A stretch of DNA of 32,544 nucleotides. Source: Gammaproteobacteria bacterium. GTDB taxonomy: Bacteria > Pseudomonadota > Gammaproteobacteria > GCF-002020875. The notes beneath the pieces were generated by a model. That model saw only the letters and a list, made by a program, of their open reading frames with translations, did no database searches and was not told where the DNA came from. Shown in pieces: positions 403 to 21,548 of this stretch. The translations under genes and the position numbers were made by a program. Numbering within the stretch: position 1 is the stretch's first letter; each line of letters begins with the position of its first letter. Location: assembly GCA_018648825.1 (NCBI GenBank), contig JABGQL010000103.1, positions 1 through 32,544 on the forward strand. Reading direction: 5' to 3'.

Positions 403-804
403 TCATACTAACAGCCCATCCAGCTCCTCATAGCGAGAAAACAGCCGGTCCATACTCACTAACTGTGACCTATGCTCGATTGCTGTTGCAATAATTGCTC
501 GGTCCATTGGGTCCCCGTGATGCTGTGGCAACAGCGCTGCACGAACTGCAATTGCTTTGTCTGTTGGTAATACCTCAATACCAGAATCTTCAGTTGCCAG
601 AGTAATCCACTCCATGAGGGGCAGGCTTACCTCAATGCGTCCACTACGGATCAGCCATAGCGATTCATAGAGTGATGCGGATGAGATTGCCAATGCCCCG
701 GAAAATTGCTCAATCTGCTGGCGCAGGGCGACGGGTAGTTGTGGATTTTGTTGTAACCACCAGACCCAGATATGGGTATCCAACAGAAGATAATGAGAAC
801 TCAC
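403..804 (-). CDS. PIN-domain toxin, VapC-type
   Basis: N-terminal LLLDTHIWVWW, later GDPMDRAIIATA and LVSMDRLFSRY, typical of PIN nucleases. ATGA overlap with the upstream small ORF. Confidence 0.85.
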   Translation of the reverse strand: MSSHYLLLDTHIWVWWLQQNPQLPVALRQQIEQFSGALAISSASLYESLWLIRSGRIEVSLPLMEWITLATEDSGIEVLPTDKAIAVRAALLPQHHGDPMDRAIIATAIEHRSQLVSMDRLFSRYEELDGLLV

Positions 805-1073
805 TTAAACGCCTCTGGGTCTCCGGCCAATTGGTCTGCACTGCGTTCAACCATTCCATTTAGTTCATTTTCAGAGAAGGGAGAAGAGGTGATGTCTCCG
901 GTAATAGTCATAGCCTCTTTCAACGCTTCAGCTGGAGTGTGGTTTCTTGCGCTCCTCTTATGCTGATCTTGAATCAGAAAAATGGCCTCAATGGTTGCGT
1001 TGGGGGCCAGAACAGGGTGTTCAATCAGGCTACCTTGGTCGTCGGTGTGTAGTACTACTCTTTCTGCGTGCAT
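801..1073 (-). CDS. Putative antitoxin partner of the PIN toxin
   Basis: 90-aa ORF immediately upstream of the PIN toxin with a 4-nt overlap; family not recognised with certainty. Confidence 0.65.
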   Translation of the reverse strand: MHAERVVLHTDDQGSLIEHPVLAPNATIEAIFLIQDQHKRSARNHTPAEALKEAMTITGDITSSPFSENELNGMVERSADQLAGDPEAFK

Positions 1074-12318: not shown

Positions 12319-12795
12319 GGCGTGTGGCTTCATCTGCTCTGCTGTAGGTCCGGCACTGAAGTACTCATCCGCCTCATCAATATCCATCGGTTTACCCTCT
12401 TCACAGCAGTCGCCGCAGATCATCTCCTGCTCGTAGTCATTCCAGCCTCGTAGCCCCGTACGTAGTGAACTGACGTTTTTATACCCCATCAACTGCATGG
12501 TGTGGGCGGCAAAGATGCTGCGGTTTCCTGAACGGCAGACCACCACCACCTCACGCTCTCGCGCCTGCACCAGCTCGGGTACCGTCTCTTCATAGTTCCA
12601 TTCACAGGCGGTCTCGAGAATGCCACGAGGGACATTAACGGAGTTGCGGATATGCATCTTGGCGTACTCATAGGGTTCGCGTATGTCGAGGATGAGGATG
12701 TTGTTCTCCTCCTCCAGTTTCTCAGTAAAATCCCAAGGGAAGATCTCGGTGATCTGTGGGGTCAGCTCCTTGACCAGTTCGGTGAACAGTTTCAT
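12313..12795 (-). CDS. Rhodanese-domain protein with C-terminal Cys-rich tail
   Basis: NILILDIREPYEYAKMHIRNSVNVPRGILE and active-site loop VVVCRSGNRS; tail contains CGDCCEEG. Confidence 0.88.
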   Translation of the reverse strand: MKLFTELVKELTPQITEIFPWDFTEKLEEENNILILDIREPYEYAKMHIRNSVNVPRGILETACEWNYEETVPELVQAREREVVVVCRSGNRSIFAAHTMQLMGYKNVSSLRTGLRGWNDYEQEMICGDCCEEGKPMDIDEADEYFSAGPTAEQMKPHAS

Positions 12796-12807
12796 CGGGT
12801 TTTCCTT

Positions 12808-13458
12808 TTATCTATCTTGTTTGGTGATGCCGCGCTCTACTGCGATTACAGCAGCCTCTACGCGAGAGTGAACGTCTAACTTTTTCAAAATAGATTTCAC
12901 ATGTAATTTTACGGTGCCATCGGAGATATCCAGTTCACGTCCAATCACCTTATTGCTCTGCCCCTCGGCAAGGTGAGAGAGAATCTGATACTCGCGTGGG
13001 GTGAGTAGCGCCTGAAGATCATCGCGCTGGTGGGTCTTGAGGATCTCCCCCTGAGCTACACGTGCCAGCAGTGGGGTCATGGAGGGGGCAACCACCACCT
13101 CGCCCTTGAGAGCCCGCTCTAGTGAACTGATCAGCTCTTCGGTCTCCATATCCTTGAGTAGATAACCCTGAGCGCCCCCCCGCAGTGCAGCCAGTAGGTC
13201 CTGCTCCTCTTCGCTGGTGGTGAGCATGACGACGGGAAGGGTGGGGGTTCTCTTCTTGAGTGCGGCCAGCACTTGCAGTCCATCCATCTCTGGCATGCGC
13301 AGGTCGAGTAGTACGATATCGGGTTCCAGCTCTGTGGCGAGGCGAATACCCTCTTCCCCTGTGCCAACTGCGGCGGCGATCTGAATATCATGCCCCTGTA
13401 GCAGAGCACCGATTCCGGTACGAAACAGGGTGTGGTCGTCGATTAGCAGGACTTTCAT
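12808..13458 (-). CDS. NarL/FixJ (LuxR-type HTH) response regulator
   Basis: MKVLLIDDHTLFRTGIGALLQ, VLLDLRMPEMDGLQVL, C-terminal LTPREYQILSHLAEGQSNKVIGRELDISDGTVKLHVKSILKKL. Confidence 0.95.
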   Translation of the reverse strand: MKVLLIDDHTLFRTGIGALLQGHDIQIAAAVGTGEEGIRLATELEPDIVLLDLRMPEMDGLQVLAALKKRTPTLPVVMLTTSEEEQDLLAALRGGAQGYLLKDMETEELISSLERALKGEVVVAPSMTPLLARVAQGEILKTHQRDDLQALLTPREYQILSHLAEGQSNKVIGRELDISDGTVKLHVKSILKKLDVHSRVEAAVIAVERGITKQDR

Positions 13459-14789: not shown

Positions 14790-14821
14790 AGAGATCCTGA
14801 GTTATTCGTTGCCACTCAAAA

Positions 14822-14857
14822 GTAAAAAAGCCACAGACACAAGGTCTGTAGCTTTTC
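14822..14857 (-). terminator. Rho-independent terminator downstream of the DsrC-like gene
   Basis: On the - strand: aaaagctacagac-cttgt-gtctgtggctttttt followed by actttt; stem plus T-tract. Confidence 0.8.
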
Positions 14858-14889
14858 GTTGGCAGCGTGTAGCTTTCAACGGGTAGTGA

Positions 14890-15228
14890 TCAGTACCCAC
14901 CTTTACGGCGTGACTCTGGCAGTCCAGCAATCTTACCCGCTTGCTTAGAGGGCTGCTTAGGGAACAGAGTGTAGAGATCTTTGGAGTTGATCTTCTCGCC
15001 CCAAGCTGCAGACATCGCCTTAACCAGGTTGCGGTCGTTAGGCTGGCTGCCACCATTGTTAAAGAACTCATCACGTAGGTGGTTAACCAGGTCCCAGTGC
15101 TTGTCGCTCATCTCAACACCTTCAGCTTCTGCGATTACCTTGCCTACCTCTTCGTTCCAGTCATCCTGGTTCTCAAGGTAACCGTTGGGATTGGTCTCGA
15201 TGGTCTGTCCGTTGACTTCATAACTCAT
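14890..15228 (-). CDS. DsrC/TusE-family protein lacking both C-terminal cysteines (RspA-type)
   Basis: MSYEVNGQTIETNPNGYLENQDDWNEEVGKVIAEAEGVEMSDKHWDLVNHLRDEFFNN..., DsrC fold; C-terminus KQAGKIAGLPESRRKGGY has no Cys (compare KQACKIGGLPKPTGCI in the DsrC at 21025-21360). Confidence 0.93.
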   Translation of the reverse strand: MSYEVNGQTIETNPNGYLENQDDWNEEVGKVIAEAEGVEMSDKHWDLVNHLRDEFFNNGGSQPNDRNLVKAMSAAWGEKINSKDLYTLFPKQPSKQAGKIAGLPESRRKGGY

Positions 15229-15303: not shown

Positions 15304-16005
15304 TTACTCCTGTTCCTGAAGCTGATTCTCCACTGTTTTGTGGGGTAAAAACAACCCGCATCCAAAATCTTTCCCTTGATCCAACCCTTTTTGTTGCAAT
15401 TGTAGCGCCTCTGAGGGGGTAAGGTCAGCCATCATCAGGCTCTGTGTGGTGATGGTTTGATGGCCAGCTTGGAGTAGGTTTTTGCGTCCACATACCATCT
15501 TCCGAGGGTAGATATCTCGCGCGGCCAGCTGCTGGCGAATTCGCTTGAGAAACTGCTCTTCACTCTCATCGGCCTCAAAGATGGCAAAGCGAGTATAGAG
15601 GGTTGTGAGCTTGCTTAGCAACTGTGTGTCTGGGTGGCTCAGGGTTATGCTGGCTGGCTCTATCTCTAGCGTAGTGCCATTCAGGGTGTTGATGGCTTCG
15701 TCAACACGGGATTTGGGCAGGCGCAACGTCAAGCGGGTTCTGCGAGAGGGGTAGAGTAGGGCCTCACCACGCTCGGAGTTGTTCTCCGGTGAGAGCCAGC
15801 CATTACCGGATGTGGCCACTAGAATCTGGTGTAGTGCCGCATAGGGTTCCTCTTGGAGCCAAGGAAGGTGAGCCAGCACTGCGCGGCTCAATGCCCAGCC
15901 GTGGTCGGCTGATAGCGCTTTGCACTGAATACGGAAGCTGAGGTCGACCACCTCATCTGATATGACGATGGTCTGCTCTCTAGCATCCTCTTCCCAGAAT
16001 GACAT
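15304..16005 (-). CDS. Cas6/Cmx6-like (type I-MYXAN family) RAMP protein
   Basis: LSFRIQCKALSADHGWALSRAVLAHLPWL...ATSGNGWLSPE...SRRTRLTLRLPKS...KMVCGRKNLLQAGHQTITTQSLMMADLTPSEALQLQQKGLDQGKDFGCGLFLPHKTVE. The DHGWALS N-terminal motif and the C-terminal SLM-L-P-S--LQ--GL--G---GCGLF-PHK match my recollection of Cas6/Cmx6 proteins. Confidence 0.78.
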   Translation of the reverse strand: MSFWEEDAREQTIVISDEVVDLSFRIQCKALSADHGWALSRAVLAHLPWLQEEPYAALHQILVATSGNGWLSPENNSERGEALLYPSRRTRLTLRLPKSRVDEAINTLNGTTLEIEPASITLSHPDTQLLSKLTTLYTRFAIFEADESEEQFLKRIRQQLAARDIYPRKMVCGRKNLLQAGHQTITTQSLMMADLTPSEALQLQQKGLDQGKDFGCGLFLPHKTVENQLQEQE

Positions 16006-16023: not shown

Positions 16024-16704
16024 CTAACCCGGCAGCTTAGCGCGTAGTGCATCACGATCAATCCACCAGTTTTCCCCTGCGAGCGCATCTACTGCGGCAG
16101 AGAGTTTGGGGAGGAACGAGTCGGGGTTATCAAACTCATTGCCGAGCATCCAGATATCAAACTCCTCTTGGTTTTTGATATTGCGATGCTGAGCTGCGAC
16201 TTCGGCCAGCCGTTGGCTGGTAAAGAAGCGGATGTTCTCACCAGCTTGTCCCTCAGCGCCGCGCTTGTCGGCAATGAAGTGGGCGCTGACGGCCGCCACT
16301 GCAGCAGTATCAGAGCCTACAGGGGACTCTTCTACCATATGTTGGAGGATGGCGACGGTGGTCTCTGGGTTGATAGGGTAGGTGATTCCCAGCCAGATGC
16401 CGTGAGCCAGTGCAATGAGTGAATCCTTTTGATCGGCTGTAACCAGGATATCGGTAGATGTGACCGCCAGCTCCCAGTTCTCGACAGTTTTGAAGTGTTC
16501 AAAGGCCTCCCAAGCGGCATCCCAGGCATCCTCTTTGCGCTGGAAGTCGAGTAGCAGGGTGCCGTAATCGAGTAGTAGTTCAGCGCGCTCATCGGATGCA
16601 GCAAGCCCTTGCAGGCGTAGCTCCAGATCGGCCATGCGAGACTCTTTAGATTCTGCGCTCTCACCCTCGTCGGCGAGTAGGTCCAGTGGTGCTGTTGCGG
16701 TCAT
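16024..16704 (-). CDS. Uncharacterised probable helical-repeat (TPR-like) protein
   Basis: 226-aa acidic, Ala/Leu-rich predicted helical ORF (ERAELLLDYGTLLLDFQRKEDAWDAAWEAFEHFKTVENWELAV); ggagatcacc RBS upstream; same-strand tight spacing with neighbours. Confidence 0.7.
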   Translation of the reverse strand: MTATAPLDLLADEGESAESKESRMADLELRLQGLAASDERAELLLDYGTLLLDFQRKEDAWDAAWEAFEHFKTVENWELAVTSTDILVTADQKDSLIALAHGIWLGITYPINPETTVAILQHMVEESPVGSDTAAVAAVSAHFIADKRGAEGQAGENIRFFTSQRLAEVAAQHRNIKNQEEFDIWMLGNEFDNPDSFLPKLSAAVDALAGENWWIDRDALRAKLPG

Positions 16705-16740: not shown

Positions 16741-16926
16741 CTAAGAGAAGGCGGCTTCAAGCCGATCTTCCCAGTTATCTGGGGTATCTGTAAAAGGGGG
16801 GCGCACATCAATGCGGAAAAAACGTTTACGTCTAGCGCGTGCCATATCATGTACGGCGCGTTCCAGATCTTCAAAGGTTTCCATCTCGTGCTGCTTTTCC
16901 ATCAACACTTCGCTTAAATTTAGCAT
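16741..16926 (-). CDS. Uncharacterised 61-aa protein
   Basis: First ORF of the - strand gene set divergent from dsrA; MLNLSEVLMEKQHEMETFEDLERAVHDMARARRKRFFRIDVRPPFTDTPDNWEDRLEAAFS. Start could be the internal Met at MEKQ. Confidence 0.55.
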   Translation of the reverse strand: MLNLSEVLMEKQHEMETFEDLERAVHDMARARRKRFFRIDVRPPFTDTPDNWEDRLEAAFS

Positions 16927-17357: not shown

Positions 17358-18677
17358 ATGTCAGAGAAAACCAAGCTAAACGCAGTCAGCCCTGAGCTGG
17401 ATATCGCAACCCCAAATTTGGATGAGCTGGAAACAGGTCCTTGGCCGAGTTATGTGTCAGGCCTAAAGCGCCTTGCAGCGAGTGATGCGGCCCATACTCC
17501 GATGATGCGTGGCGTTATCGGAACACTGGAGCAGTCTTTCATTAACCGTCGCGGTTACTGGAAGGGCGGCACCGTCGGTGTAATTGGTTACGGTGGTGGT
17601 GTTATCCCCCGTTTCTCTGAGCTGAAGGATGACAAGGGCGAGACCATGTATCCAGCGGCGCTGGAGTTCCATACTATTCGCATCATGCCAGCTTGGGGTA
17701 ACCACTATAACTCCAAACTGCTGAGAGATATGTGTGACGTTTGGGAGGCGACAGGTACAGGTCTTGTTGCGATGCACGGACAGTCTGGCGATATCATGTT
17801 CCAGGGTACTGACACAACCGGTGTACAGGTTGCTTTCGATAAGTTTAACGAGATGGGTTTTGATATGGGTGGAGCCGGTCCTGCGGTTCGTACCTCCGTC
17901 TCTTGTGTGGGTGCGGCCCGTTGTGAGCAGTCTTGCTACGATGAGGGTGACCTGATGCGTGCCACCATCAATGAGTTCCTTGATGATCTGCACCGTCCAG
18001 CGCTGCCATACAAGATGAAGTGGAAGTTCTCTGGTTGCCCTAACGACTGCACTAATGCGATTCAGCGTGCAGATATGGCGGTAATCGGTACTTGGCGCGA
18101 TGAGATCAAGATCAACCAAGACGGCTGGAAGGCATTTGTAGCGGATAAGGGTATGAAGCATGTGGTGGATAACATCACTAGCCGCTGCCCAGGCCAGTGC
18201 ATGGATGTTGCTGAAGACAGTACTTTGACAATTGATAATAAGCAGTGTGTTCGCTGTATGCATTGCATCAATGTGGTCTCTTCAGTAAGCCAGCAGTATG
18301 TAGGTAAGGATGGCGATGCGATCCTTGCACAGGGTGATGATAAAGGGCTGAGCATCCTTATGGGTGGTAAGCGTACGCTGAAGGTTGGCGATATGTTCGG
18401 TACCGTTATTGTTCCATTCATGAAGCTGGAAGACGAAGATGATAAGGAACGTTTCCTTGAGATCTGTGGCGACCACGTAGACTTCTTTGCTGAGAATGCG
18501 CTGGAGCATGAGCGTTCTGGTGAGATGATCGAGCGTATCGGTCTGCCTGCTTATCTGGAAGGGATGGATCTGGAAGTGGATCCTCAGATGATCAGTGAGC
18601 CACGTCAGTCCTCTTATGTCCGTATGGACGGATGGGAAGATGAAGTTGCTAAATGGGAAGAGCGTAAGAGCGCGTAA
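17358..18677 (+). CDS. dsrA: Dissimilatory sulfite reductase alpha subunit (reverse/oxidative type by operon context)
   Basis: SCVGAARCEQSCYDEG, KWKFSGCPNDCTNAIQRADMAVIGTW (siroheme/4Fe-4S) and ferredoxin domain CVRCMHCINV. Confidence 0.98.
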   Translation: MSEKTKLNAVSPELDIATPNLDELETGPWPSYVSGLKRLAASDAAHTPMMRGVIGTLEQSFINRRGYWKGGTVGVIGYGGGVIPRFSELKDDKGETMYPAALEFHTIRIMPAWGNHYNSKLLRDMCDVWEATGTGLVAMHGQSGDIMFQGTDTTGVQVAFDKFNEMGFDMGGAGPAVRTSVSCVGAARCEQSCYDEGDLMRATINEFLDDLHRPALPYKMKWKFSGCPNDCTNAIQRADMAVIGTWRDEIKINQDGWKAFVADKGMKHVVDNITSRCPGQCMDVAEDSTLTIDNKQCVRCMHCINVVSSVSQQYVGKDGDAILAQGDDKGLSILMGGKRTLKVGDMFGTVIVPFMKLEDEDDKERFLEICGDHVDFFAENALEHERSGEMIERIGLPAYLEGMDLEVDPQMISEPRQSSYVRMDGWEDEVAKWEERKSA

Positions 18678-21024: not shown

Positions 21025-21360
21025 ATGCCAAGTATGGACGTAAATGGTAGTGCAGTAGAAGTTGACGAAGAGGGTTACCTCAGTGATATCAACGACTGGA
21101 ACAGAGACATCGCTTCAGCCTTGGCTGAGACCGAAGAGGTTGAGCTGACTGATTCTCATTGGGAAGTGATCGACTTCCTGCGTGAGTATTATGACGAGTA
21201 TCAGATCGCTCCAGCAGTACGTGTACTGACTAAGGCGATCGGCAAGAAGTTGGGTAAGGATAAGGGCAACAGCAAGTACTTGTACGAGTTGTTCCCATAT
21301 GGCCCAGCAAAGCAGGCTTGTAAGATTGGTGGCCTGCCTAAGCCAACTGGCTGTATCTAA
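21025..21360 (+). CDS. dsrC: DsrC sulfur carrier with both C-terminal cysteines
   Basis: C-terminus YLYELFPYGPAKQACKIGGLPKPTGCI: both redox Cys present. Confidence 0.98.
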   Translation: MPSMDVNGSAVEVDEEGYLSDINDWNRDIASALAETEEVELTDSHWEVIDFLREYYDEYQIAPAVRVLTKAIGKKLGKDKGNSKYLYELFPYGPAKQACKIGGLPKPTGCI

Positions 21361-21369
21361 GTGTAACGT

Positions 21370-21392
21370 CCCAGCTGTTGTATAGGCTGGGA
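21370..21392 (+). promoter_or_regulatory. Hairpin cccagc-N-gctggg after dsrC
   Basis: cccagctgttgtataggctggg, 6-bp stem; immediately upstream of a stronger hairpin. Confidence 0.35.
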
Positions 21393-21405
21393 ATTAGACT
21401 TTGAA

Positions 21406-21431
21406 TCTGGGGGGTGTACGCACCCCCCAGA
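21406..21431 (+). promoter_or_regulatory. Very stable hairpin in the dsrC-dsrM intercistronic gap
   Basis: TCTGGGGGGTG-TACG-CACCCCCCAGA, perfect 11-bp GC-rich stem with UNCG-type loop; not followed by a T-tract. Confidence 0.65.
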
Positions 21432-21548
21432 CTCTAAACCAAGAATTTCTGGTATTGGCTATACCCAAAGTATGCTGTACGTATACTCCAAAGGGATAGC
21501 GGATACTGCAACGGACTGATCTGAGATGACCGCGGAGGCGAACGGCAT

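Follow-up and report, generated by a model that had tools for sequence, protein, structure and literature searches.

RspA, a cysteine-less DsrC paralogue with an invariant RKGGY tail, is linked to dsrA in Gammaproteobacteria

The window, the stretch of DNA analysed here (32,544 nucleotides), is one entire contig of a 2.65-Mb draft genome that is 88.5% complete. It carries rspA, a DsrC paralogue gene that is a conserved accessory dedicated to oxidative (reverse) Dsr metabolism in Gammaproteobacteria. Sequence comparison indicates that rspA represents an ancient orthologous cysteine-less DsrC subfamily rather than a broken copy. One of the main routes of sulfur oxidation, the Dsr pathway operates in settings that range from vent symbionts to oxygen-minimum zones; its regulation is poorly known. 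rspA and a neighbouring Cas6-like gene follow the distribution of gammaproteobacterial dsrA almost as tightly as would be expected of a pathway component, a link that is hidden because family models name the two products TusE/DsrC and CRISPR Cas6. The relevant features of the window are the following.

14825..14857, minus strand: intrinsic terminator 3' of rspA (14-bp stem and T tract), which parts rspA from a kinase gene
14890..15228, minus strand: rspA, DsrC paralogue without Cys, ending in RKGGY (ORF, profile, tail, tree and AlphaFold2 model)
15304..16005, minus strand: Cas6-like RAMP protein (PF09559, TIGR02807), immediate upstream neighbour of rspA
16024..16704, minus strand: TPR-like protein, 226 residues, all-helical, with no Pfam family, conserved module member
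16741..16926, minus strand: small conserved protein, 61 residues, unannotated ORF, first gene of the divergent module
17358..18677, plus strand: dsrA, first gene of the divergent dsrABEFHCMKLJOPNRS cluster (to 30748)
21025..21360, plus strand: canonical dsrC with both Cys, the comparison paralogue of rspA

The cysteine-less protein and its family

The rspA reading frame begins with ATG just downstream of an AAGGAG motif, and its translation yields 112 residues without any Cys. The product matches PF04358 with an E value of 1.2e-32 and scores 102.6 bits against TIGR03342 (cut-off 53.5). The C-terminal tails of RspA, KQAGKIAGLPESRRKGGY, and of the canonical DsrC, KQACKIGGLPKPTGCI, are exactly those quoted in the earlier note, whose description of a cysteine-less DsrC paralogue beside a canonical DsrC is borne out, as is its point that a DsrC/TusE-family protein without Cys cannot carry a persulfide on the usual residue. 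The two proteins, from the same dsr cluster, share 44% identity over a full-length alignment, and they are the only DsrC-family members in the window's genome at the search threshold. The AlphaFold2 model of RspA has a pLDDT of 88.9, with values below 50 only at the final three residues (GGY), and its best PDB match is DsrC from A. vinosum (1yx3) with a TM score of 0.87. The protein is acidic (pI 5.0, charge -5.7), and the median across copies is a pI of 5.1 with a charge of about -5.

Profile match and fold place the protein in the DsrC/TusE superfamily (PF04358). It lacks the two C-terminal Cys of DsrC, located at the penultimate position and about 11 residues before, and also the penultimate Cys of TusE, which is replaced by Gly in all KGGY rows. 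It corresponds instead to the definition of RspA, a DsrC-superfamily protein without both conserved Cys; the name was reportedly given by Venceslau et al. in 2014 to the cysteine-less group of the superfamily in sulfur oxidisers. In terms of this definition, the window gene is RspA-type. A sequence-only search of named genomes retrieved 17 further orthologues with 57-91% identity, all of them with the RKGGY tail, from Thiohalomonas denitrificans, Sedimenticola, Thiotrichaceae and further Gammaproteobacteria, and from Magnetospirillum. The rspA of Candidatus Thiothrix singaporensis (L035, 7998-8339, plus strand) has one in-frame stop, either a true lesion or a sequencing error.

RKGGY ends the paralogue in 51 of 51 dsr-linked loci, and DsrC keeps its penultimate Cys in all 51. 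Residues that are invariant in both the KGGY and the DsrC clades include R52, P63, R66, K70, F89, P90, P93, K95, Q96, G102 and P104. Among KGGY proteins the first Cys position accepts G, L, R, S or other residues. Only Gly occupies the second, preceded by an invariant two-residue insertion, R108 and K109, and followed by an equally invariant Y112. The RKGGY tail is in this respect a specific replacement of the second Cys and not decay. Standing in place of the redox Cys, it is a precise and testable feature. The DsrC-specific stretch of residues 58-69 (EYQIAPAVRVLT) is not retained in RspA.

The KGGY relatives, 44 of 44 rows, group as a single clade in a tree built from 102 rows, with a branch support of 96, or 97 after removal of the C-terminal arm; DsrC, TusE, the DsrC of sulfate reducers and a KGEH-tailed cysteine-less paralogue lie on the other side of the branch. 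These are quick trees of about 100 columns, with the deep order unresolved. Within the genus, rspA has a pN/pS of 0.125, indicative of purifying selection (dsrC, 0.088), a soft value, as substitutions at synonymous sites approach saturation (mean pS 0.79). The loss of both Cys, and the absence of rspA from 15 of 119 genomes with dsrA, could suggest a degenerate or recently duplicated DsrC heading for loss. This reading is extremely improbable and was rejected, given a separate clade, the low pN/pS, an invariant tail and the retention of rspA in reduced genomes. The family phylogeny proposed in the earlier note reveals an ancient single clade, which, with strong purifying selection and the invariant tail, runs against the recent degenerate copy that would have undermined it. 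A second cysteine-less DsrC paralogue with the tail GGPQKQGNRIAGIRKTKGEH occurs in the same genus (L012, L016, L017, L020), distant from the dsr cluster; it was not detected in the window's genome.

Linkage to dsrA and the divergent module

The distribution of rspA was surveyed in 369 gammaproteobacterial genomes from well over 100 families. dsrA was counted in 119 of them, 112 above the curated cut-off and the rest as strong fragments, and rspA was found in 110. Both genes are present in 104 genomes, rspA alone in 6, dsrA alone in 15 and neither in 244. rspA thus occurs in 104 of the 119 genomes with dsrA versus 6 of the 250 without it (Fisher p 7e-67, a value that overstates independence, as the genomes are related). 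At least three of the six rspA-only genomes (G072, G131, G321) have the gene at a contig end. Several of the 15 dsrA genomes that lack rspA are 95-100% complete, and rspA is therefore not essential for the Dsr pathway. Where rspA and dsrA share a contig, they lie less than 10 kb apart in 73 of 75 cases and on opposite strands, in a divergent arrangement, in 70. The KGGY clade is rare outside Gammaproteobacteria, nearly all other proteobacteria sampled being without it, and the three non-gammaproteobacterial genomes with rspA (two Magnetospirillum and one other) all have dsrA. Both rspA and the Cas6-like gene persist in 1.0-1.1 Mb genomes, which match those of streamlined or symbiotic sulfur oxidisers in size. 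In locus L174, rspA is located inside the operon, in the order dsrM-dsrK-rspA-dsrL.

Two further observations concern dsr genes. A second dsrA, 80-82% identical, is present in L212 (259-1611, minus strand; contig C81 of the window's own genome) and in L213 (7225-8685, plus strand); no other dsr genes were detected beside either copy, the downstream side of L212 ending at the contig end. In nine loci (L100, L108, L112, L116, L127, L128, L133, L135, L166), rspA has a distant dsrS homologue nearby, unlike the window, where dsrS is the end of the dsr operon.

Going away from dsrA, the divergent module consists of the small protein, the TPR-like protein, the Cas6-like protein, rspA and the terminator. 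The Cas6-like protein matches PF09559 (E 1.5e-53) and scores above the TIGR02807 cut-off, and is thus a Cas6 protein by profile. Its gene is found in 118 of the 369 genomes, with dsrA in 111 and alone in 7, and 8 genomes have dsrA alone; it is therefore present in 111 of 119 genomes with dsrA versus 7 of 250 without. It is single-copy everywhere except in one genome, where it is split. Among 95 genomes with both genes on one contig, the Cas6-like gene is less than 2 kb from rspA in 93 and on the same strand in 89, with a median gap of 136 bp, so that the suggestion of a Cas6-like partner gene, made from the window, proves to be general. Twelve genomes carry the Cas6-like gene without rspA. Judged by Cas1, the gene does not regularly accompany CRISPR adaptation genes: Cas1 is missing from 41 of 80 genomes tested that have the Cas6-like gene and, within the window's genus, from 4 of 6 (the window's genome and three others). 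Conservation of one His and of the G-x-G loop reaches at least 98% across 50 Cas6-like proteins. The Cas6-like gene, which may encode an RNA nuclease that serves sulfur oxidisers outside CRISPR, merits a study of its own.

A PDB fold search with the 226-residue protein gave weak TPR-like matches only, none with an E value below 0.001. In 45 of about 50 loci, the gap that precedes dsrA holds a relative of the 61-residue protein in the same orientation, and the members read end in DTP(D/E)NWEDRLEAAF. The gap also contains a TauD-family dioxygenase gene in many other genomes.

On the other side of rspA, the terminator region has a z-score of -4.9 over 14800-14892. The NarX/NarQ-like kinase beyond it, which the earlier note had listed as a candidate partner, adjoins rspA only in the window's genus and in 1 of 40 distant loci. 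Since it is not conserved beside rspA and a strong terminator parts the two genes, the kinase and its response regulator were rejected as core partners. Elsewhere in the window, a PIN-domain protein (403-804, minus strand; PF01850) overlaps a small upstream ORF (801-1073, minus strand) in a toxin-antitoxin-like pair.

rspA is also found in viral contigs. In the 219-kb viral contig L187, canonical dsrC and rspA are adjacent, about 10 bp apart (12450-13140, minus strand); the pair lies near a peroxiredoxin-like gene. rspA in its RKGGY form is also found in two more viral contigs, L095 and L188, and the L095 copy, surrounded by phage-type genes, groups in the tree with a 1.1-Mb sulfur oxidiser. 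Neither the L174 operon nor the viral arrangement places a Cas6-like gene beside rspA, which suggests that RspA acts on the Dsr machinery itself.

Possible modes of action

Beyond the observed association with dsr, we infer docking and regulation: RspA would mimic DsrC without carrying sulfur, dock on a Dsr partner and regulate sulfur oxidation by the reverse Dsr pathway, an explanation that we give an even chance of being right. Since P93, K95, Q96 and the xGLP motif of the DsrC arm are kept in RspA, docking in a DsrC-binding site is feasible, with rDsrAB-DsrL, DsrK or DsrEFH as candidate partners. Once docked, RspA would neither take up nor hand on sulfur; by filling the DsrC site, it would set the sulfur flux into sulfite, or signal the occupancy of DsrC. 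The penultimate Cys of DsrC accepts the sulfur delivered by DsrEFH, and a change of this Cys strongly lowers binding between the two proteins (PMC3397948). Strong binding of RspA to DsrEFH in the same manner would therefore be less probable than an interaction with DsrAB, DsrL or DsrK. Because the DsrC-specific surface around residues 58-69 is not kept, the partner of RspA may also differ from that of DsrC. Against the mimic stands the usual gene neighbour of rspA, which is the Cas6-like gene and no Dsr gene. A mirror-tree analysis singled out no partner for rspA (partial r <= 0.2; control dsrA-dsrB, 0.78).

This neighbourhood is the basis of a different explanation, in which RspA and the Cas6-like protein, perhaps with the TPR-like and small proteins, would bind or cut dsr mRNA or other RNA and so set dsr expression post-transcriptionally. 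On this view the dsr locus would have co-opted a CRISPR nuclease, the Cas6-like protein, with RspA as its sulfur-state adaptor, comparable to TusE in its docking on the tRNA thiolase MnmA. The close, same-strand pairing of the two genes, the distribution of the Cas6-like gene along with dsrA, the frequent lack of Cas1 and the conserved His and G-x-G loop all argue for it. We nevertheless regard it as rather unlikely, because rspA stands apart from the Cas6-like gene in the L174 operon, the viral contigs, Magnetospirillum and the G458 loci, the Cas6-like gene occurs without rspA in a dozen genomes, and the rspA-Cas6-like mirror-tree partial r is 0.03. An Rfam scan of the window gave no match at the gathering threshold. 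The spacer between dsrC and dsrM (21361-21548, plus strand) contains a strong GC-rich hairpin that recurs in nearly all loci; its absence from reduced genomes that keep both genes weakens it as a universal Cas6-like substrate. This hairpin is possibly a partial terminator or an mRNA stabiliser for an abundant dsrC message. A broader version, equally doubtful, is that the dsr-linked module (small, TPR-like and Cas6-like proteins and cysteine-less DsrC) controls reverse-Dsr at the RNA level, and that some phages tap into it via rspA, once with dsrC.

A DNA-binding transcription regulator of dsr genes is a role already proposed for RspA in the literature. The DsrC fold has a reported helix-turn-helix-like part, and rspA is divergently positioned beside the dsrA promoter region. 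One passage of PMC7787665 cites the 2014 review for a putative DsrC function in transcription regulation. Given the acidity of the protein, Foldseek matches of the model to DNA-binding proteins only at E values above 0.5, far from significant, and the location of rspA away from the dsrA promoter in L174 and the viral contigs, this role is improbable. Direct binding of RspA to a Dsr protein, as in the mimic explanation, is thought more likely than binding to DNA.

Relation to known systems

Cysteine-less DsrC homologues as such are already known, for example in the Solemya velum symbiont, where dsrC homologues located away from the operon are without the two conserved Cys (PMC4287430). None of the papers searched describes RspA or a Cas6-like gene beside dsrA, and the RKGGY clade, its near-universal gammaproteobacterial tie to dsrA and the Cas6-like companion were not found in them either. 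Phage-encoded DsrC/TusE-like proteins have been reported (PMC4164917, PMC8190135), and five of these copies have neither Cys (PMC8190135). The copies in L095, L187 and L188 resemble them in being cysteine-free but have the RKGGY form, and rspA of L187 differs in adjoining canonical dsrC; these contigs possibly overlap the published ones.

RspA is similar to A. vinosum DsrC (PDB 1yx3) in fold, identity (about 38-44%) and the arm residues P, K, Q and GLP. It differs by the absence of CysA and CysB, the loss of the 58-69 stretch and a tail that is two residues longer. With TusE from E. coli and others it shares family, fold and the lack of CysA, but TusE retains the penultimate Cys and RspA forms a separate clade. 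The second cysteine-less paralogue (tail GIRKTKGEH) likewise belongs to the DsrC family and has neither CysA nor CysB, but it has another tail, falls in a separate clade and is located away from dsr. The published cysteine-less RspA group likewise consists of DsrC-family proteins of sulfur oxidisers without either conserved Cys. What is added here to that definition is a single clade that invariably ends in RKGGY, is linked to dsrA nearly throughout the Gammaproteobacteria and constantly has a Cas6-like gene next to it.
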